A DNA stretch of 41,564 nucleotides from Clostridia bacterium. Its GTDB lineage: Bacteria > Bacillota > Clostridia > Oscillospirales > CAG-272. The DNA is taken from NCBI GenBank assembly GCA_017453365.1, contig JAFTKH010000027.1:1-41564 (forward strand), in the 5' to 3' direction. Positions 3,635-14,800 of the stretch are shown here, in pieces (position 1 is the stretch's first letter; each line of letters starts with the position of its first letter). Below the pieces are notes generated by a model. The model did not search any database, was not told the origin of the DNA, and saw only the letters and a program-made list of their open reading frames with translations. The position numbers and the translations under genes are program-made.

Positions 3635-4048
3635 ATGAAAAGAATAACGGTTGCAGTCTGCCTCGACGATGAGGGCGGAATGATGTTCAACAACAGGCGC
3701 CAGAGCCGTGACAGAGTGCTTATTGCAGAGCTTTTGTCTTCGACCGAGGGAAGGATAGTTATCCATCCGTATTCAGCTATGCTCTTCGGTGATTCCGAAC
3801 GGGTTTTTATTTCAGAAAATCCACTCGAGGATGCGGCCGAGGGGGATATATGCTTTATCGAGCAGTTGCCGATAGCTCCCCTGCTCTCTTACGTCGGGCG
3901 CTTTATAATCTATAGATGGAACAGACTCTACCCGAGGGATAAATCCTTCGACGTGGACGTAGCGAGCGCCGGCTTTTCACTCTTGTCCGAAACCGAGTTC
4001 GTCGGCAGCTCACACGAAAAAATAACGAAAGGAATTTACGAAAGATGA
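3635..4048 (+). CDS. Small conserved cytosolic protein partnered with nuclease
   Basis: The 137-aa soluble protein has no signal peptide or membrane segment. Notable stretches are DDEGGMMFNNRRQSRDR (res ~11-27), YRWNRLYP (~93-100) and EFVGSSHEKITKGIY (~121-135). From memory, similar proteins in Clostridia precede EndA-type nuclease lipoproteins and are sometimes labelled ribonuclease Z without a metallo-beta-lactamase motif; none is visible here, so that label should not be used. Its stop overlaps the next start (ATGA, 4045-4048), which implies translational coupling. By analogy with ComJ, which inhibits NucA in Bacillus, it could hold the nuclease inactive in the cytosol. This role is inference only. 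Confidence 0.8.
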   Translation: MKRITVAVCLDDEGGMMFNNRRQSRDRVLIAELLSSTEGRIVIHPYSAMLFGDSERVFISENPLEDAAEGDICFIEQLPIAPLLSYVGRFIIYRWNRLYPRDKSFDVDVASAGFSLLSETEFVGSSHEKITKGIYER

Positions 4049-6318
4049 AAAAAAGGCTTTCCCTTCTGCTTTTAACACTTATAATATCCCTCTCGCTGAT
4101 ACTCACGGGATGTGGCCTGTTTACATTCACGCCCTCGGACGATCCCGGCGGAGACGATACCCCGATAACGAGCGTTCCCGAGAACGTGGTAATAGGCGGA
4201 GAACAGATACCCGCCTACACAACGGAGCCGTACTACGTAGTAAATGGAAATACTCCCTTCTTTACGGCGAGCGAGATTACGTCCGTTGGCTTCTACAATT
4301 ACACCGACCTTGACGAGCTCGGAAGGTGTGGAGTTGCCTCCGCGTGCATAGGCCCGGAAACGCTTCCTACCGACGAGCGCGAGGATATAAACCATATTCA
4401 TCCGAGCGGCTGGTATTACAATGGAAAATCCAATAATAACCGCTACGACAAGTCGACGGGAGTTAACGGGTACATATTCAACCGTGCTCACCTGCTGGCA
4501 AATCAGCTCGTGAGCGAGGACGTAGACGAGAGAAATCTCATAACGGGCACGTCTGCTATGAACCAGCGCCACATGGTGACCTTCGAGAATATGGTAGCCG
4601 ACTACGTCAAGGAGACCGACGGTCACGTTATGTACCGCGTGACTCCCTACTTTGAAGGTAATAACCTCATTTGCTCCGGAGTTCTTATGGAAGGATATTC
4701 CGTCGAGGACGAGGGCGAATCGGTTCTCTTCTGCGTATTCATTTACAACGTTCAGCCCGGTATATACATCAATTATCTGACGGGCGAAAACTGTCTTGCA
4801 TCGGAGATGACGGGCGGTGACACCAACGCGGACGGCGGCCACGAGCATTCCACTACCGCAGATGGCGACCGCGCAGCAACCTGCACCGAGAAGGCGTACT
4901 GCTCGGTTTGCGGTAAGGAGTACGGAAATCTCGCTTCTCACACTCCGAACGCGGATGACGGTGACTGCACGACCGCTGTCACCTGCTCTGTATGCGGTGA
5001 CGTAACTACCGCAGCGGCTTCCGCTCACACGGGCGGCTCTGCGACCTGCAAGGTCAAAGCAAAATGCTCGGCCTGCGGTAAGGAGTACGGCAGTCTCGCT
5101 TCTCACACTCCGAACGCGGATGACGGTGATCCCACAACGGCTGTTACCTGCTCTGTATGCGGTGACGTAACCACCCCGGGTGCTTCGGGCGGTGATAGCA
5201 GCGGCAGCTCCTCTGTGCAGGTGCCCGAAAACGTTACTATCGGCGGAGTTAAGATACCAGCCTACACCTCGTCGGGCTACTACGTTGTTAATAACAACAC
5301 CCCCTTCTTTACACAGAATGAAATAACAACTACTGCGTTCTACACCTTCTCCGAGCTTGACTCGCTCGGGCGTGCGGGCGTTGCGTTCGGTTGTATCGGT
5401 GTCGAGACTATCCCCACAGACGCAAGGGAGGATATAAGCCATATTCATCCCAGCGGCTGGTATTACAACGGCGTATCGAACAACAACTCATATCCCGGCG
5501 TTTCGGGACTTTCCGGTACTGTCTATAATCGCGCGCACTTATTCGCGAATATGCTCGTCAGCGAGGACGTCGACGAGAGAAACTTCGTCACCGGTACGGA
5601 GGATTTCAACCAGACCCATATGCTATCCTTCGAAAACCTGGTACAGGACTATGCAAAGGAGTCGGGCCAGCACGTTATGTACCGCGTAACTCCCTACTTT
5701 GAAGGTAACAACCTCATCTGCTCCGGAGTTCTTATGGAAGGATATTCGGTCGAGGACGAGGGCGCTTCGGTAGAGTTCTGCGTATTTATCTACAACGTTC
5801 AGCCGGGTATATACATTAATTATCTGACGGGCGAAAACTCTCTCGCTACGGAGGACGGTGCTGATAGCGGCGAGGTTTACACCAAGGTTTCAAATCCTGC
5901 GGCAGGCGTTGCCTACAAGCTCGTCGGCACCTATTCGACGGGTGACAAGTATTTTAACGGCGGCGTTTCGTCAAGCGGACTTTCCCACACCTCGGATATC
6001 TCGGGCGCTGTCGACGTATATCTCGAGTCAACGGGTACGAACGGAGAATATTATCTCTATTTTTACTCCGGAACGACGAAATACTATATAGTAATGACAG
6101 GAACAGGAACAAGTAATTTCAAGGCATCTACGACAAAAGACTCCTATTGGATAATGAACTCCAACGGAGCGCTCGTGTCGAATATAGATACAGGCAATTC
6201 AAACGGAAATCGGGCACTCGCCGTAAACAACAGCAGTGCAAACTACTTCCGTGCATACTACGAAAGCGAGGTGACGAGCGGAAAATACACAGCACTTTTC
6301 TTCGCTTTGGCGAATTAA
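4045..6318 (+). CDS. Lipoprotein with two EndA/NUC1-type nuclease domains
   Basis: The 757-aa protein begins with a lipoprotein signal ending LTGC (Cys ~23), so it is surface-anchored. Two homologous DNA/RNA non-specific endonuclease domains follow (res ~45-255 and ~392-605). Each has an NRAH motif in place of the usual DRGH, with the catalytic His at 149 and 498, and then an RNLITGT...MN or RNFVTGT...FN segment that supplies the metal and substrate Asn. The linker (~265-380) carries repeated CSVCG modules (CxxC pairs). A C-terminal beta-rich domain (~615-757, start YTKVSNP) resembles tails on other secreted nucleases. Probable role: degrading extracellular DNA for nutrients or uptake. The catalytic His residues are 349 codons apart, and the DNA of the duplicated parts is nearly identical in places. 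Confidence 0.9.
4621..4800 (+). repeat. Duplicated segment in the nuclease gene (second copy near 5668-5847)
   Basis: The stretch from CACGTTATGTACCGCGT through the GACGGGCGAAAAC region recurs 1047 bp downstream with few differences, including long identical blocks such as TCCGGAGTTCTTATGGAAGG. This shows a within-gene duplication of the nuclease domain, with this part kept more alike than the rest. Confidence 0.85.
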
Positions 6319-6362: not shown

Positions 6363-8432
6363 ATGAACAATATTGATCAAAAGTACGGTGCGCTCTTTAC
6401 TCCGTGGAAGATAGGAAACGTTGAAATAAAGAACCGCATAGTTATGTGCCCTATGGGCGGAACATCTCTTTTCGGCTGGTTCGAGCTCACGGGCTGTCAT
6501 TTCGACCGCGAGGCGGCAAAGCTTTTCCTTAAGAGGGCTAAAAACAACGTCGGTCTCATTATCCCCGGCATCGCTCCCCTGCGCGACACCTTCTTCGGCA
6601 GGTGGCTGTGGCAGAATGAGAAGATGTTCGATGAGCTCCGAGTCTTTATGGACGAGATACATAAGACGGGTGCAAAGCTCTTTATTCAGCTTACCGCCGG
6701 AATGGGGCGCTCATGGGCTATCACGGAGCTCGTCGCACCCCTGCACAAGAACAAATTTACAAGGGCGCTTATAAAGCCCATAATCGACACCTCGCACGAG
6801 CTCGCGAGCCCGAGTCCCCAGCCGTCCCGCTGGGCGCACGATATAGAGTGCCCCGAGATGACGAAGGAACAGATACACGAGATAATCGAGGCGTTCGCGA
6901 AGACTGCGAAGCTCTGCCGCGATGCCGGTGTTGACGGCGTTGAGGTTCACGCGGTGCACGAGGGCTACCTTCTCGACCAGTTCGCAATCGAATTTTTCAA
7001 CAAGCGGACGGACGAGTACGGCGGAAGCTTTGAGAATCGCTATCGCTTCGCAAAAGAGGTTGTTTCCGCTATTAAAGAGGCCTGCGGCGAGGATTTCCCC
7101 GTTTCGCTCCGCTACTCCGTAGAGTCAAAGATGAAGGGCTTCTGCGAGGGAGCTATGCCCGGTGAGGACTACACCGAGGTTGGACGTAATATGGAAGAGT
7201 CGGAAAGAGCGGCAAAATACCTCGAGGAAGCGGGCTACGATATGCTTAATGCAGATAACGGAACCTACGACTCCTGGTATTGGGCTCATCCGCCGATGTA
7301 TATGCCCGAGAACTGCAATCTCGAGGACGTGGCACACATAAAGAAATTCGTTAACATCCCCGTTGTCTGTGCGGGAAGAATGGACCCCGAGGTTGGCGCT
7401 CGCGCCGTCGAGGAAGGAAGAATAGACGCCGTAGGTATAGCAAGGCAGTTTTTGGTCGACCCCGAGTGGGTAACGAAGATGATAGAGGACAGACTCGAGG
7501 ATATCAAGCCCTGTATCTGCTGTCACAGCGGCTGCTTTAATTTCTCTTCCTCGAAGGGACACGCGAACACGCAGGATCTCACGGACACTATGGGTCTTGC
7601 ACGCTGTGCACTGAACCCCGAAACAATGCAGTCGAAGAAATACAAGCTCGAGCCCGCAAGCAAGAAAAAGAAAATCGCCGTCATAGGCGGAGGCATCGGA
7701 GGTATGGAGGCGGCCCTCGTATGTGCGAAGCGCGGACACGAGGTAACCCTGTATGAAAAGAGTGACAAGCTCGGCGGTGTATTTATCGCGGCGGCCGCCC
7801 CCTCCTTCAAGGAGAAGGACCGTGCGCTTATCGCGTGGTATATCCGCGAGCTCTCGAAATATCCGATAGAGCTTAAGATGAACACAGAGATAAGCGATAC
7901 AAGCGCGCTCGACGCTGATGAGATAATAGTAGCAACAGGCGCGGTTGCGAAGAGGATACCCGTTCCGGGTGCTGAACGCGCCGTCGAGGCTATAGACTAT
8001 CTTCTCGGGAATGCCGAGGTCGGTGACAAGGTTGCCGTTATCGGCGGCGGTCTTACGGGCTGCGAGATAGCGTACGAGCTCTACCTTAAGGGAAAGAGCC
8101 CTGTTATAGTGGAGATGCAGGACGACCTTATTACGGCGAAGGGCATCTGCCTCGCCAATACCAGCTACCTGCGCGATTTCTTCAAGACTAATAAGGTTCC
8201 CGTATATCTCGAGACTTCTCTTTCCGAGATAGGCGAGGGCTCGGTTACGGTGAAAAATAAGGAAGGCGTGGAGCTTAAGCTTGATGCTGACTCGGTTATC
8301 CTTTCCGTAGGCTACAATTCTGCGCCCGTCGCGAAACGCGGACGTCACGTACACGTCATCGGAGATGCAAGGAAGGTTGGAAACCTTCGCAGCGTTATCT
8401 GGGGCGCTTGGGACGTATGTATGAAGCTTTGA
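6363..8432 (+). CDS. Old-yellow-enzyme-type Fe-S flavoenzyme (2-enoate/dienoyl-CoA reductase-like)
   Basis: The 689-aa enzyme has three parts. An FMN-binding TIM barrel (res ~8-375) carries [12 protein letters not shown] and the [14 protein letters not shown] signature. A [4Fe-4S] site is formed by C384-x2-C387-x3-C391 and C415. FAD/NAD(P) Rossmann domains show [12 protein letters not shown] (~440-451) and [12 protein letters not shown] (~559-570). This is the architecture of 2-enoate reductase, 2,4-dienoyl-CoA reductase, BaiCD/BaiH bile-acid reductases and trimethylamine dehydrogenase. Substrate is not determinable from sequence. A longer in-frame start at 6147 lies inside the nuclease gene and is rejected; the ATG at 6363 has GAAAGG 8 nt upstream. 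It lies 20 bp ahead of the AcnX genes. Confidence 0.92.
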
Positions 8433-8452
8433 TAAATTAAAGGGAGAGAAAA

Positions 8453-9727
8453 ATGATATTAACAAAAGAACAGCAAGCGATACTCGACGGCGAAAGAGGC
8501 GAAACGCTTGCGAAGGTTATGAAAACTATCGTGATGTACGGCGAGGCCTTCGAGGCTGAAAAGCTCGTACCCATCACCTCGGAGTACAATCACCTCGTAA
8601 CGTCCTTTGGTCTTAAGGTGATGTCACCCGTCTACGACCTTATGCAGAAGCTTCTCGATGCGGGTGTCGTATCGGGGCAGAAGTTCTCCGTAGACCCGCG
8701 TCCTCTCGACAAGAACGTTCCCGCGAATTTCTTACAGAATTTCGTTTTCAACAAGTTTATGTACACGAAGCAGGACTTCTACGAGGAGCAGCTTCGTAAG
8801 CTCGGGCTTCTGGACGACAAGGCCTTTAGCTGCACGTGCTATATGGATGAGCTCGGAAACAAGCCGAAGCGCGGCGACGTGCTTTCGTGGGCGGAGTCGA
8901 GCGCGGTCGTATATGCGAACTCCGTCCTCGGCGCAAGATGTAACAGAAACTCGGGAATTATAGACATAATGGGCTCTATTGTGGGATACGTTCCCTATTT
9001 TGGTCTTCTCACCGACGAGGGACGCCGCGCGAGCTGGGTTGTAAGAGTAAATACTACGAAGAAGCCCGAGGCACAGCTCCTCGGCTCTGCTATCGGTATG
9101 AAGGTTATGGAGGACGTTCCCTACGTTATCGGCCTCGACAAATGGATAGGAAGCGAGCTTAACGACAGTGCGTGCGCGTACCTTAAGGATTTTGGTGCCG
9201 CAACCGCTTCGAACGGCGCTGTAGGACTCTACCATATCGCAGGGCTCACTCCCGAGGCGGTAGAGCTTGGCGAAGAGCTTATAATCGAGGGCGCACGCGA
9301 GTACGTTATCGATGATGCCGAGCTCGAGAGAGTCAAGAAAAACTATCCCGTTATCTGGAAGAAGCCGGATGCAAAGCCGAAGCTCTGCTTCATCGGATGC
9401 CCTCACCTCTCGCTCGAGCAGCTCAAGGATTGGACCAACAGGATAGAGGCCTCCCTCTCAAAGAACGGAAAGAAGAAGGTTACCGTTCCCACAGTGCTCA
9501 CGGCGGCTCCCGGTGTACTCGAGGTGTTTGAAAAGACGGAGTATGCACCGAAGCTTAAGGCGGCGGGTGTTGTTACATCATACATTTGTCCGCTTATGTA
9601 TATGAACAATCCGCTTTGCAAGAAGATGCCCGTTATAACCTCGTCGAACAAGCTCCGTACCTACACGAGCGCGAGATACTACACGGACGAAGAAATACTC
9701 TCTGCTATAACAGGAGGTGAAAAATAA
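8453..9727 (+). CDS. AcnX-type dehydratase, large (catalytic) subunit
   Basis: The 424-aa protein matches the aconitase X catalytic domain (DUF521). It has SEYNHLVTSFG (res 43-53), the Cys-bearing ARCNRNSG (C163) and CFIGCPHLS (C312, C316), plus C379; some of these should hold the Fe-S cluster. Known AcnX enzymes dehydrate cis-3-hydroxy-L-proline (bacteria) or phosphomevalonate (archaea). The substrate here is open. The RBS AAAGGGAG precedes the ATG. The last base of its stop is the first base of the small-subunit ATG. Its position behind an ene-reductase suggests dehydration of a hydroxy-acid followed by reduction of the C=C or C=N product. Confidence 0.92.
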   Translation: MILTKEQQAILDGERGETLAKVMKTIVMYGEAFEAEKLVPITSEYNHLVTSFGLKVMSPVYDLMQKLLDAGVVSGQKFSVDPRPLDKNVPANFLQNFVFNKFMYTKQDFYEEQLRKLGLLDDKAFSCTCYMDELGNKPKRGDVLSWAESSAVVYANSVLGARCNRNSGIIDIMGSIVGYVPYFGLLTDEGRRASWVVRVNTTKKPEAQLLGSAIGMKVMEDVPYVIGLDKWIGSELNDSACAYLKDFGAATASNGAVGLYHIAGLTPEAVELGEELIIEGAREYVIDDAELERVKKNYPVIWKKPDAKPKLCFIGCPHLSLEQLKDWTNRIEASLSKNGKKKVTVPTVLTAAPGVLEVFEKTEYAPKLKAAGVVTSYICPLMYMNNPLCKKMPVITSSNKLRTYTSARYYTDEEILSAITGGEK

Positions 9728-10170
9728 TGAAGCAGTTTAAAGGAAGAGTTATCACCCCCGGCGAGGTAACGGCGGAGGCCGTAGTAACAACGCAGGGCTT
9801 CAACACCCTCGCATCGCTTCAAATGGCGTTGCAGTTCGGTGACAAGGAGGTTAAGTGTGGCGACCAGAATAATGCCGAGCTTCACGGAAAATCACTCCTC
9901 GGAAAGGCTCTTTGCCTGCCGCAGACCATCGGCTCGACGACGGGAGGTCTTGTGCTCTATTGCGCGTGCGCTATGGAGAAGAACCCTGCCTGTATGCTTT
10001 TCTCGGGTCACATTGACTCACTAGCGGCGGCAGGCGCAGTGCTCGCCGACGTATGGGTAGACGGTGTAACAATGCCCGTTATCGACTCACTCGGAGACGA
10101 GTTCTTAAATTACGTCAAGGACGGAATGAAGATAACCGTTTCAGCTGACGGGACGGTCAGTGTTGAATAA
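9727..10170 (+). CDS. AcnX-type dehydratase, small (swivel) subunit
   Basis: The 147-aa protein matches the AcnX swivelling domain (DUF126). It starts with the KGRVITPGEVTAEAVVT segment and has the typical LPQTIGSTTGG loop (res ~64-74), which carries active-site residues. In some lineages this is fused to the large subunit; here it is separate and translationally coupled (TAATG overlap, AGGAGG upstream). Together with 8453-9727 it should form the active enzyme. It is the last gene of the plus-strand run and is followed by a terminator at 10184. Confidence 0.92.
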   Translation: MKQFKGRVITPGEVTAEAVVTTQGFNTLASLQMALQFGDKEVKCGDQNNAELHGKSLLGKALCLPQTIGSTTGGLVLYCACAMEKNPACMLFSGHIDSLAAAGAVLADVWVDGVTMPVIDSLGDEFLNYVKDGMKITVSADGTVSVE

Positions 10171-10183
10171 TTTTCTTAACAGA

Positions 10184-10220
10184 AAGCGCACAGCAATTTC
10201 AACAGAAATGCTGTGCGCTT
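10184..10220. terminator. Bidirectional terminator between convergent genes
   Basis: A perfect 12-bp stem AAGCGCACAGCA / TGCTGTGCGCTT lies between the AcnX operon (plus) and the membrane-protein pair (minus). On the plus strand it runs into TTTTGTT. Confidence 0.85.
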
Positions 10221-10223
10221 TTG

Positions 10224-10937
10224 TTACTTGAGACGTCGCCATTTTATAAGGCTCGCGGCTATTAAGACCTGCGAGGGGAGGTAGAATATCCACGCCATAT
10301 TGAGTCCGGTGTGAGTAATCGAATATATAAAGCCGCTCTCTCCTACGTTAAAATAATCCGAAAGATTATCGAGCCCTATCGACAGGTCGCAGAGTGCAAA
10401 CAGGACAAGCCCTGCGGAAAAGAGGCGAAGCTCTCTGTCAAAAAGCGAGAACACAAGGTTCAGCACAAGCTCGGAATAGTATATAACGCTTATGACGGAG
10501 AGTGTGTCTGCCGAGTCACCGAGTATCATAAAGGGTAGCAGCGCCGCGAGCACTGTCACAGCTAGGCGTACGGCGGTGTGCACGAGGAAGAGCCTTCCCC
10601 GCTCTCTTATAAGTATATATAGAAAATACGAGAGCTGTGCAGCTATAAAAATTACGACCCCCTGTGCTTCACGCGCGGGATCTAAGACAACGAGGCAAAA
10701 ATCGGCGCCGAGAGTAAACGCTAGGGCGAGGTTGACGAGGTAAGAATACTTCTGCCTTTCAGTGAAGAAGGAAGCACACGAAAACGAGAACACAAGGATA
10801 ATCGAGAGATACGCGGGTATACCGAAATACTCCTGCGGTACAGTCTGTATTAAGACGTAGAGCACGAGCTCTAAAAGAAGGAAAAGCAAGAGCAACGATA
10901 TTATTGCCGCTTTACGTGTGGGTACGAAGCCTTTCAT
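10224..10937 (-). CDS. YhhN/TMEM86-like membrane protein (putative lysoplasmalogenase)
   Basis: The 237-aa protein is almost wholly hydrophobic, with about eight membrane segments. Asp-bearing segments TLGADFCLVVLDP (~75-87) and ALCDLSIGLDN (~182-192), and a C-terminal YLPSQVLIAAS, fit the YhhN/TMEM86 family, whose characterised members hydrolyse the vinyl-ether bond of lysoplasmalogens. The match is by pattern only, so the activity is inference. Its start lies within the upstream gene (26-bp overlap), with GGGAGG about 12 nt before the ATG, so the two are coupled. Confidence 0.65.
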   Translation of the reverse strand: MKGFVPTRKAAIISLLLLFLLLELVLYVLIQTVPQEYFGIPAYLSIILVFSFSCASFFTERQKYSYLVNLALAFTLGADFCLVVLDPAREAQGVVIFIAAQLSYFLYILIRERGRLFLVHTAVRLAVTVLAALLPFMILGDSADTLSVISVIYYSELVLNLVFSLFDRELRLFSAGLVLFALCDLSIGLDNLSDYFNVGESGFIYSITHTGLNMAWIFYLPSQVLIAASLIKWRRLK

Positions 10938-11745
10938 ATATCAGGCAACCTCCCTTCGCCGCGCATAAGACCGCAAAGAGAACGAGTGCGGCGGCTGCGG
11001 TAAAGCCAAGTACGTAAATCACAAGAAATACGGGATACGGAACGACGGTATATATCGAGCCGAGCACGGGGAGCGTGCACTCGAAATAAGGGCTTATAAA
11101 GAACATATTAAAGGTTTCGTCTATAGCGTTCGCGTTAAGTACCGCGTGCACCGCGAAATTCAGAGCAAGCGCCGCGAGAACGGAGACTGCGTAGAACGCC
11201 ACACCGCGAAGGAAGTATTTGAAGCCGAGCCTTTTCCTGTATCTGATGGCAAAAAAGACACCGAGTATCACCTGCGAGGAATGATGCACCATAGTCTGAA
11301 TATTTATACCTATAGTAGAAACAAAGACGTCAGAGGGATAAAGCATAACAGCAAGTCCTGCAAACAGCGAGAAGCTCGACATAAAAGCTATCGCACCGTC
11401 GCGCAGCTTTGAGTCAGGGAGAAAGGCTATAAACGGGAGAACGTACATAGGCGTTGAGCAAAATTGAAATGGGAAGGCGTACCACTGATAATCACTGGTG
11501 ACACTGCCGTTTTCGTATTCGAGAGTGAACACTGTCTGCTTATATATTTCAAGGACTACTATAGCTATCCAAGCTACAAGAACCATACGGCTGACTGCCG
11601 GCTCGGAGCTATTTTTCATAAGAGCGCACAGTACGGCAACCGCAGCTACCATAAGCAAAAAAGAGACGATATGGAAGATTCCGTAGGGCTCGGGCTTTAT
11701 CATTTCAGTTTCCAAAAAAACAAGAGTTCGCTCGAAAAAATTCAC
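10912..11745 (-). CDS. YwaF/TMEM164-like membrane protein
   Basis: The 277-aa protein has about seven membrane helices. FPFQFCSTPMYVLP (res 91-104, Cys96) and MVHHSSQ (152-158, His154/155) resemble the YwaF family and its eukaryotic relative TMEM164, a Cys-dependent acyltransferase that forms ether phospholipids. The equivalence of C96 and H154/H155 with the TMEM164 active site is inference. The start is GTG at 11745: a strong GGAGG sits about 8 nt ahead of it, while the next ATG (res 15) has no such site. It is first gene of a two-gene unit with the YhhN-like gene, under the promoter at 11780-11808. Confidence 0.75.
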   Translation of the reverse strand: MNFFERTLVFLETEMIKPEPYGIFHIVSFLLMVAAVAVLCALMKNSSEPAVSRMVLVAWIAIVVLEIYKQTVFTLEYENGSVTSDYQWYAFPFQFCSTPMYVLPFIAFLPDSKLRDGAIAFMSSFSLFAGLAVMLYPSDVFVSTIGINIQTMVHHSSQVILGVFFAIRYRKRLGFKYFLRGVAFYAVSVLAALALNFAVHAVLNANAIDETFNMFFISPYFECTLPVLGSIYTVVPYPVFLVIYVLGFTAAAALVLFAVLCAAKGGCLIYERLRTHT

Positions 11746-11779
11746 GTTTTTACATCCTCCTTTTTTACGTTTCTCCCAT

Positions 11780-11808
11780 ATTCTAGCATATTATACGGTG
11801 TATTACAA
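11780..11808 (-). promoter_or_regulatory. Promoter of the membrane-protein pair
   Basis: On the minus strand, TTGTAA (11808-11803), 17-bp spacer, extended -10 TGCTAGAAT (TAGAAT at 11785-11780), 35 bp before the GTG start. Confidence 0.75.
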
Positions 11809-11846
11809 CCGACTGATTGGGTTTTTAATTTTAATTAATATTCGAC

Positions 11847-11880
11847 AAAAAAGCCTGTCGGGAAATTCCCCGACAGGCTT
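11847..11880 (-). terminator. Terminator of the giant-protein operon
   Basis: The stem AAGCCTGTCGGG / CCCGACAGGCTT (11851-11862, 11869-11880) is followed on the minus strand by TTTTTTGTC. It sits just past the stop at 11886. Confidence 0.9.
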
Positions 11881-11885
11881 TTGGT

Positions 11886-14800
11886 TTATCTGTAGGTTAC
11901 GTCAACCGCAGGCGTTCCCTCAATATAAGGAGGAATAACTCCGCCGTCGGTATAGACGCCGGCCTCATAGCAGTAAGCATAGAGTGCCGCAAGCAGCTCG
12001 GAGAGACTCGGGTCCTCGGCTGCTGTTGAGGTTGCGTAATCTAAAAGCGAATACTCGCCCGAGATTGCAGCTCCGCTCTCTGCACTGCCCGTTATCGCAA
12101 CCGACGCGCTGTACCAAAGAGGCGCATCGGGAGACACCTCGATATAAGCAAGCTCTCCCACACGTCCGTTCGTAACGCTATAGGTTACGCCGGATACCGT
12201 AATCGTTCCCGTAAAATCGGAACGGAGATTGAAGCGGAAGGAGATATTACTCGAAAGATAGAGCTGAACTCCACAGAAGGCTGCGGAGATGTTTCCGAGC
12301 CTACCGAAATCAAGAACTGTGGGTATCTCGTTCATACCGCGAAGCTCCGACGAATATTTCTCACTCACAAGGAGCTCGGAGAAGCTCTCGGGGAGCTCGC
12401 AGCTTCTGTAGGCATAAGCCTTCGCCACGTAGGCCATAGCCGCCGCGGACAGCTTTCTAGCGAGCGGGTCGTTACCGTTGAGCAGCTCGTCAAAATAATC
12501 GATGGGCGAATACTCGAAGCGTGCGCTGTACTCGGCACTGTCAGAGCCCACGAAGCCTACGTGAAGGGTAATAGTTTCAAGGCTGTCAGATGCGGATATA
12601 CCGCCAAGAGACACTACGTAATACTCTGCTCCCTCAATGCTCGTGACCTCAAGCTCGGAGGGCAAGGACCTGCCGAGGTAGGTATCGACGTAGCGTAACG
12701 AGTCGTCCTTACGAATATAGAACTTTGCAACGAAGTCGAGAGAAAGCGCGAGGTTGAATTTCATCTCTACGCCGCTCGGAGCTATCGAATACTTATATCC
12801 GTCGGTGCCGGATGCCAAAACTACGTAGCCCATAGGACATACGACGGTACCGCAGTCGAGGTCTCTCGGGTCGCTTGTAAAGACGCTATCCGAAATATTG
12901 AAGGTCGCTATAACAGAGGGCGTGCCATCGGAGCGTGAGGATACGTCGAAGACCCTTTCCGTCTCAACCTTACATCCATCGAGGGTAAGGTCAAGGGTTG
13001 AGTCCCTGTTAAGCTTATCGGCCACGGAGGAGTAGACCTTAAACACCGAGAGCGCCGTAATTTTATCGCAGTCGGAAATATTAACGTCGATATCCGCCAG
13101 CTCACCGTCGGAGGAGTGAGTCATAAGAGGGCCTGCTACGGACACTTCGGTATTTGAAATATTGACCGCACTTGCACCCCCCAATTTCGAAAGGAGAAAC
13201 GCAGGAACGTTCACGTCATCGGTCCTACCGGTTATCGCGCTGCCGTCGGTACCGACCATATTAACAGCACCCTCTGCGACTGTAAATGCGGGGTAGCTGT
13301 CAAAGGACACCTCAACGTCAGAGAGGTTGAGTGTACCGCCATCGCGAATAGAAACGAAGCCTGTGGTAGAAACATTTATCCTACCGTTTCTCACGTTAAC
13401 CGTTCCGCCGACGATATCAAACGCGGCGATGCTATCCGCCATAGCCTTATTCTTCGTGAGCGTATTACCGCCGAGGTCGAGATTAAGAGTACCTACTACA
13501 ACGGCCGAGCTCTCGGACACAAGCTTCACGTCATCGTAGATGTATAAGTAGGAGCCGTCGGTAAAATTCGCAAGGTCTGCATCACTGAGCGTATTTTCAA
13601 AAATTGCGCTAGTAATACTCTGAAGCTCCATATCTGCGTATTCAACGATAACAGCAGGGCCTACGTCCTCGAGCACCAAATAAAAATTGGAATTTCCGGT
13701 TATTGTCGCATTCTCGGTGTAGGTCGTGCGTTCGGGGGTTGGAGACCAGCCCGCCTGAACTCTTTTAAAAACTCTGTTTCCGACGTTTTCAACGTTCTTT
13801 ATAACGTAGCTTTCATCCAATACGGATATATCGACGGTGACTCCGTCGGCGTAACCCGCATAGCCGTTCATATCTATGGCTATCGGTTCGTTTTCACTGT
13901 TATAAAACGTTGCTGTATAAAGGTAATTACACAGACTGTGAGGATATGCTCCGTCACCCGAGAAGCCCCATATAAGAAGGGGTGTCGAGCCCGGGGTGTT
14001 TGCGTGGCCTACGGGAGCGAGCGAGGTTTTCTCACCGAGGATAAGATACTGTCCGTCAAACTCGAGCGAGTTATAGTAGCTCACGCCGCAATTCGAGTTA
14101 AGACCCTCTATGGGAACCTCGGGATTATTGAACTTTGTACCCTTTTCGATATAGACATTAACATTGCTGTCAAACAAGCCCTCCCAAGAGAGGAAGGAGG
14201 AATTGAGCTCATTAAAGCTCGAGCCGTTTATAAAGGCAATGTCGAGATTAGCGTGAGTATCCTCAATATCTCTGAAATAGATAAAATTACCGCCGCCAAT
14301 GACGTTAAAGTTGGAGTTATCAAACACTATGCTCATAACGTAATCACGGTCTGGGTCGATAAGATACGACTGGAACATACCTATCTCTGCATTATAAGGG
14401 GGAGTTATGTTACAGCCAGTTCCCGCCGCACTGTAATTTATCACGGAGTTGCGGAATACAAAGCTTCTGAAGCTGTCTCCGTAGATGAGGTTACCCCAAG
14501 TAGATCTATCGTTAAGAACAACGTTTTCGATAACTGTTTCGGAGTTGGGCTGGGGCTTAAAAAACTGTGCGGAGACGTGCTCTACCGTACCGTTTTTCAC
14601 GGTGAGATAGGTAGGAGCATTTCCACCGTTGCTTCCGATGGTCAAGTTGCCCGCAGAGGTCAGGGTGTGACCGCCGAGGTCTATAACGACGGTCGCACCG
14701 TTCACAATCTGCACGTTCGTGGTGGATGGCAGGCTTAAATCACCGTAGGCAAGAAGATATGCGCCGTTCTGAATATCCGAAGCTTTTATATCGTTGGAAG

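Follow-up and report, generated by a model that had tools for sequence, protein, structure and literature searches.

Two functions have been assigned to AcnX enzymes, dehydration of cis-3-hydroxyproline and of phosphomevalonate, while the type II subclasses IIc-IIf carry no function (PMC8184944). Iron-sulfur (Fe-S) flavoenzymes abound in Clostridia, and most of them lack an assigned function (PMC11574389). Those of the 2-enoate reductase type in clostridia reduce a C=C bond that is in conjugation with a free carboxylic acid (PMC5882074). No publication joining AcnX to an ene-reductase was found among the matches listed when open-licence PMC papers were searched. Here we analyse a 41,564-nucleotide stretch of DNA from a Clostridia bacterium (contig JAFTKH010000027.1 of assembly GCA_017453365.1; the whole stretch is called the window), in which genes for both kinds of enzyme form a compact unit. 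We consider it likely that this unit performs a reductive dehydroxylation of one substrate: a free beta-hydroxy acid would be dehydrated independently of coenzyme A (CoA), and the resulting 2-enoate would then be reduced with NAD(P)H. The window is contig 20 of a 52%-complete metagenome-assembled genome of 1.36 Mb, and one AcnX was found in the whole assembly. The unit consists of the following features.

6363..8432, plus strand: Fe-S flavoenzyme (ene-reductase) of 689 amino acids, OYE/BaiCD/BilR/2-enoate-reductase family
8453..9727, plus strand: AcnX large subunit (AcnX-L), 424 amino acids, predicted hydro-lyase; PF04412, 2.6e-93
9727..10170, plus strand: AcnX small subunit (AcnX-S; swivel, domain 4), 147 amino acids; PF01989, 2.9e-12
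10183..10221, no strand assigned: probable terminator between AcnX-S and a convergent YhhN-like gene, a perfect inverted repeat with 13-bp arms around a 13-base loop, then a T-rich tail, read by eye (a pattern scan for loops of 3-8 bases did not list it)

The initial annotation had placed a 2-enoate-reductase-like flavoenzyme 20 bp ahead of coupled AcnX subunits, and this arrangement was borne out: the ene-reductase gene ends 20 bp before AcnX-L, and the AcnX-L stop and AcnX-S start overlap by one base. Its label of "Fe-S ene-reductase" was also right, as the 689-residue protein has both domains of the Fe-S flavoenzyme family (Pfam Oxidored_FMN, 2.9e-58; Pyr_redox_2, 2.6e-32) and the four-cysteine motif, with an unusual spacing before the last cysteine. 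The best NCBIfam models were the long form of bilirubin reductase (376.5 bits, cut-off 750) and BaiCD (358.1 bits, cut-off 825); because both scores lie under the cut-offs, the family is certain and no named subfamily applies. Both AcnX subunits exceeded their Pfam cut-offs (PF04412, 313.3 bits against 31.5; PF01989, 46.7 bits against 27), and profiles built on them matched the two chains of a solved AcnX structure (AcnX-L against 7cnr_A, 1.6e-60; AcnX-S against 7cnr_B, 5.1e-15).

To follow the pairing across genomes, close relatives were collected by a protein scan of genome contigs (80 kept of at least 578 confirmed; named sources were mostly ruminant or deer gut). In 78 of the 80, an ene-reductase (70-88% identical) was encoded on the same strand no more than 2.5 kb from AcnX, the exceptions being L053 and L066; the genome of L066 has a reductase at 57% identity elsewhere. 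A search of the order added 27 loci (the best of 43 rows), seven of which repeat AcnX genes of the 80; the reductase was linked in 18 of the 20 others, where flanks were only ca. 1.5 kb. Of 21 distant loci in this AcnX clade (L100-L120), 13 showed linkage; the eight without it were L100, L105, L111-L114, L118, and L119. As a control, 19 AcnX loci of the phylum that fall outside the clade (L121-L139) were inspected. None had a linked ene-reductase, and no match to the reductase occurred anywhere in these 19 stretches, that of L122 being cut just upstream of AcnX. The pairing is thus far above chance (78/80, 18/20, and 13/21 versus 0/19). The flanks are otherwise unshared: when neighbours of the 80 loci were clustered, none beyond the three genes recurred in most of them, and the largest other cluster, an antisense open reading frame (ORF) cluster aside, was a MarR-type regulator at 11 loci.

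Most clade genomes without linkage, where searched, have the same reductase lineage elsewhere. The genomes of L100, L105, and L111-L114 carry it at 59-70% identity; unlinked members in this identity range were found in genomes G053, G455, G564, G608, G660, G723, and G740. Unlinked reductases were also present in the L119 genome, G461 (54-55%), and in G003, G006, and G017 (67-82%). Among 391 genomes of the class, clade AcnX (at least 41% identity) was found in 25, two of them partial, the reductase (at least 54%) in 23, and both in 14 (Fisher p 1.6e-13, with the window's genome included, both cut-offs set after the lists had been seen, and no correction for kinship). The reductase therefore accompanies this AcnX clade in other genomes, linked or unlinked, and its failure to do so was one outcome that the initial annotation had named as speaking against its reading.

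AcnX itself is patchily distributed, being found in 15 of 59 relatives and in 30 of 398 phylum, 36 of 391 class, and 42 of 394 order genomes, counts that include distant AcnX of other clades. Its identity to the window's AcnX is 83-87% in other families of the order versus 64-78% in some members of the window's own genus. Horizontal transfer is therefore likely.

In a midpoint-rooted tree of 59 AcnX large subunits, the window's protein fell in a clade of 34 rows that was split at 100/100 from the other 25, namely TkAcnX (7cnr), AtAcnX (7cnp type), three plasmid AcnX, and 20 rows from the 19 phylum loci. The ene-reductase was linked in 24 of the 34 clade rows versus none of the 19 non-clade loci. 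By tree placement, the window's clade is separate from both characterised AcnX enzymes; clustering inside one of them was the other outcome the initial annotation had held against itself. Two clade relatives at 41% identity, in L118 (8065-9351, minus strand) and L119 (5277-6590, minus strand), have the catalytic Glu, the first Ser, the Lys, and the Tyr changed, and are possible non-enzymatic paralogues. In L202, a 599-residue AcnX-L frame (7052-8851, plus strand), some 170 residues over the usual length, lies directly behind a DAO/Rieske flavoprotein gene.

Residues were mapped on solved AcnX structures, with roles taken from PMC8184944; of 103 clade rows, the two degenerate ones (L118 and L119) were set apart before counting. 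Cys127, Cys316, Cys379, Glu148, Ser149, Lys400, and Tyr404 of AcnX-L were the same in all 101 core rows. In the AcnX-S motif Gly69-Ser70-Thr71-Thr72, Ser70 and Thr72 were found in 100/100 and Thr71 in 99/100 core rows. The three cysteines are predicted to be [4Fe-4S] ligands of the type II set, which holds such a cluster in A. pernix AcnX (PMC10040528). In the reductase, 62 aligned homologues retained Cys384, Cys391, and Cys415 in every case and Cys387 in 57; between Cys391 and Cys415 lie 23 residues versus the 11-13 quoted for the family. His199 (62/62), His196, and Tyr202 (61/62 each) were likewise retained, and we take these three to be active-site residues.

Substrate-contacting positions bear on the two functions assigned to AcnX. 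Hydroxyproline dehydration would suit a member of the same superfamily, and the sole NCBIfam match of AcnX-L is the hydroxyproline model, at 138.1 bits against a cut-off of 700. The clade nevertheless leaves out both AtAcnX and a Paracoccus AcnX sited near a 4-hydroxyproline epimerase gene. Asp203 of AtAcnX, which binds the ring nitrogen of the hydroxyproline substrate (PMC8184944), is replaced by Val49 in 101/101 core rows, Val occurring there in 1 of 19 outside rows. In none of 20 carrier genomes did the proline racemase family exceed its cut-off (three gave weak matches beneath it), and the hydroxyproline pathway offers no evident role for an ene-reductase. We therefore rejected this function as very improbable on clade, Asp203 replacement, and racemase. 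Phosphomevalonate dehydration (AcnX type IIb, of the archaeal mevalonate pathway) would agree with the heterodimer, the type IIb cysteine set, and 7cnr as the nearest solved structure. Yet the window's AcnX lies outside the TkAcnX group, the phosphate-contact stretch Gly48-Val49-Ser50 of the phosphomevalonate enzyme aligns with Thr-Ser-Phe here, its Asn79 corresponds to Asp81 (100/101 core rows), and HMG-CoA reductase, the mevalonate-pathway marker, was found in 0 of the 20 carrier genomes. With grouping, phosphate contacts, and marker all contrary, this function was rejected as having almost no chance of being correct. The initial annotation had called the usual substrates unsupported, and the carrier genomes agree.

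Since catalytic residues are kept in both enzymes, a sequence of dehydration and then C=C reduction makes sense, and the residues and the recurrent pairing support the earlier suggestion that a hydroxy-acid is dehydrated and then reduced; the new pathway is a prediction. In the proposed mechanism, AcnX (large and small subunits with a [4Fe-4S] cluster) would dehydrate a free beta-hydroxy carboxylic acid. Ser70 of the small subunit would abstract the alpha-proton, Glu148 and Lys400 would act with the cluster to remove the beta-hydroxyl, and Ser149, Lys400, Tyr404, and Thr71 would bind the carboxylate. In the ene-reductase, NAD(P)H would donate electrons that reach the 2-enoate by way of FAD, [4Fe-4S], and FMN, yielding a saturated acid. 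The net result would be the loss of one hydroxyl group for one NAD(P)H consumed, and a gut bacterium living by fermentation may use the pair as an electron sink. If true, this would be an undescribed gut-bacterial route that strips a hydroxyl from a free organic acid. As one AcnX clade is tied to flavoenzymes in many genomes, a single coupled assay could test both functions.

AcnX-linked reductases fell into three lineages in a tree of 62 reductase rows, for which 24 linked rows were hand-chosen from linked loci.

Lineage I: window type, ca. 689 amino acids
Lineage II: L103, L116, L117
Lineage III: L101, L102, L104, L106, L108, L109, L115, L120, L182

The starred branches of this tree force at least five changes of linked state. 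Therefore, one AcnX clade has joined a reductase repeatedly, or has swapped partner. Lineage-III reductases were gathered because they are linked, so their all-linked status is no measure of exclusivity.

Several observations weigh against coupled dehydration and reduction. The clade AcnX of Rhodococcus opacus (48% identity), which has a LysR gene beside it, lacks an adjacent ene-reductase. The L053 genome, whose completeness is not given, has no such reductase (best match 27%); G495, the genome of L118 (36%), and G651 have relatives at just 36-37%, and G049 and G482, with partial AcnX matches, have none at E 1e-30. L227 and L228 showed no reductase within short flanks, the rest of their genomes not having been searched, and the degenerate L118 and L119 are both without a linked one. 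Conversely, clade AcnX is missing from 9 of the 23 genomes that have the reductase lineage, three of them in genus g298, four other members of which have both; the reductase thus has a life of its own. Nor is the link wholly exclusive to the clade, since in Burkholderia L141 an OYE-family gene lies on the same strand 1.6-1.7 kb downstream of a non-clade AcnX. This gene is 28% identical to the window's reductase and nearest to unlinked lineages, an ORF on either strand intervenes, and the other two plasmid AcnX rows outside the clade had no reductase match nearby. Finally, FldZ took aromatic but not aliphatic enoates (PMC5882074). Shared regulation without a shared substrate, with the AcnX product (an enoate or its tautomer) going to another enzyme and the reductase acting on a different compound, would account for the nine genomes and for the unlinked AcnX of R. 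opacus and L053. Three reductase lineages linked to the same AcnX clade, and no link at 19 other AcnX loci of the phylum, argue otherwise, and we regard it as unlikely. The Burkholderia region is as follows.

L141 (Burkholderia arboris), 7992-12897: non-clade AcnX pair and, 1.2-1.7 kb downstream, FadH/BaiCD-like OYE-family gene, same strand

The R. opacus AcnX (L140, 14001-15730) lies on a PD630 plasmid, in an aerobe, near a 3-carboxyethylcatechol dioxygenase gene. The aromatic-acid genes near it were set aside as a clue, as they indicate no single substrate.

Genes beside the unit at a few loci bear on the direction of the reaction and on the substrate of the proposed dehydration and reduction. 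In genome G058 (L188), the OYE-family gene, AcnX-L, and AcnX-S are followed in a row on one strand by genes for a PF16868 binding protein, which we take to be of the TAXI type, and a DctM-type TRAP protein. The same two transporter genes precede AcnX in L053, with the TRAP-type gene ca. 50 bp upstream. When 163 clade loci, with 135 distinct AcnX and flanks that varied in length, were searched in translation, one further locus had TAXI-TRAP genes, L041, where they were rejected as part of the unit because a TelA-type gene and other unrelated genes intervene. Chemoreceptor genes follow the unit on the same strand, 13-30 bp downstream, in L115, L116, and L117. Ahead of the unit in L103 and L120 lie sigma-54 activators, which are also found ahead of a non-clade AcnX in L129. 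In genome G660 (L105), genes for a short protein lacking any significant Pfam match, an FrdA-type flavoprotein, and an FrdB-type Fe-S protein come after AcnX. The FrdA-type protein keeps in alignment a His, Glu, Arg, His, Arg set, with Thr changed to Ser, that corresponds to the dicarboxylate-binding set of E. coli FrdA. One of two unlinked lineage-I reductases of G660 adjoins a 2-hydroxyacyl-CoA dehydratase set, and so a dehydratase stands next to a C=C reductase once more:

L149 (G660 contig 7), 2547-10179: lineage-I ene-reductase, 2-hydroxyacyl-CoA dehydratase pair, BadFG-type activator, ParA-like ATPase, and small CdhC-like protein

These neighbours, at one to three loci each, hint at an imported carboxylate and at dehydration coupled with reduction. 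They also count to some degree on the other side: transporter links (two genomes) and chemoreceptor links (three loci) are not numerous, some non-clade AcnX (L122 and L134) likewise have TRAP genes nearby, and the fumarate-reductase neighbour is a single case. Class I fumarase, found in 6 of 20 carrier genomes, decides nothing on AcnX as a fumarase stand-in.

Aconitase-type reactions are reversible. Besides its reductive step, BaiCD is described as catalysing an oxidative one (PMC11574389). The unit might run backwards, with the flavoenzyme desaturating a saturated acid and AcnX hydrating the enoate to a hydroxy-acid. However, NAD+-linked desaturation of a simple acid is unfavourable in an anaerobe, and in G660 both AcnX and the reductase lie beside genes of reductase and dehydratase types. 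On balance, we consider the reverse direction improbable.

Returning to dehydration and reduction in the forward direction, Arg83 of AcnX-L is near-invariant (100/101 core rows, one Lys), while at least 17 of 19 outside rows have Thr, Gly, Ala, Ser, Ile, or Cys in this column. Our guess is that Arg83 would meet a second negative charge of the substrate. Together with the one dicarboxylate-type fumarate-reductase set beside AcnX, it makes a hydroxy-acid with a second negative charge our best candidate for the substrate, a proposal we consider doubtful. Somewhat better placed, though still tentative, is the broader view of a widespread, horizontally moving, CoA-independent dehydration-reduction pathway of gut Clostridia. 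An external hydroxy-acid would be its electron acceptor, perhaps a forage hydroxy-di- or tricarboxylate (for example, citrate or isocitrate converted through aconitate to tricarballylate). Tricarballylate is a rumen product (PMC4392294, PMC5830445). Were the external hydroxy-acid view true, it would add a third AcnX function and place AcnX in anaerobic energy metabolism.

Other neighbours were recorded as observations. In L198 (6300-9222, minus strand) and L199 (8380-11221, plus strand), a class V aminotransferase gene comes after AcnX and an exonuclease/phosphatase-family gene before it, the domains being those of the L198 copies, the only ones scanned. The aminotransferase beside AcnX in G006 and G017, which by eye we took to be SerC and which Pfam gives as Aminotran_5, was set aside as a clue because the two are one related pair. 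In the window, the gene upstream of the unit (4045-6318, plus strand) encodes 757 amino acids, two stretches of which match DNA/RNA non-specific endonuclease models. Downstream, at 10224-11745 on the minus strand, YhhN-like and TMEM164-like membrane-protein genes adjoin, convergent to AcnX-S; four other loci of the reductase-AcnX unit share an ORF cluster that includes a YhhN member (L020). Six large minus-strand ORFs of 1025, 2726, 1692, 1557, 992, and 626 amino acids follow in a row (11886-39296) and possibly encode giant surface proteins; a Pfam match at 1e-5 was obtained for the 992-residue ORF only (Laminin_G_3, 5.1e-9).

The window's AcnX resembles the A. pernix phosphomevalonate dehydratase, whose T. 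kodakarensis homologue is solved, in its two subunits, three Cys ligands, Ser base, Glu/Lys/Tyr set, and carboxylate recognition. It differs from that enzyme in its own clade (100/100), in the loss of phosphate contacts, in carriers without HMG-CoA reductase, and in its recurrent partner flavoenzyme. With type I AcnX, the hydroxyproline enzyme, it shares the fold family, the catalytic Ser, Glu, Lys, and Tyr, and two of the Cys ligands, but type I is fused and has a [2Fe-2S] cluster (PMC8184944), and its amine-binding Asp is Val in the window's clade. The reductase has the Oxidored_FMN and Pyr_redox_2 domains and the four-cysteine motif of FldZ, BaiCD, BilR, and other Fe-S flavoenzymes (FldZ being compared by description). 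Unlike BaiCD and BilR, it scores under the NCBIfam cut-offs, has the longer Cys spacing (23 versus 11-13), and is paired with another dehydratase. As a whole, the unit recalls the reductive branch of Stickland fermentation, in which 2-hydroxyacyl-CoA dehydratase and an ene-reductase dehydrate, then reduce a C=C bond, as an electron sink. The Stickland dehydratase is CoA-dependent, works by radical chemistry, and has 2-hydroxyacyl-CoA as its substrate (PMC11574389), whereas that of the window is of the aconitase type and would act on a free 3-hydroxy acid.

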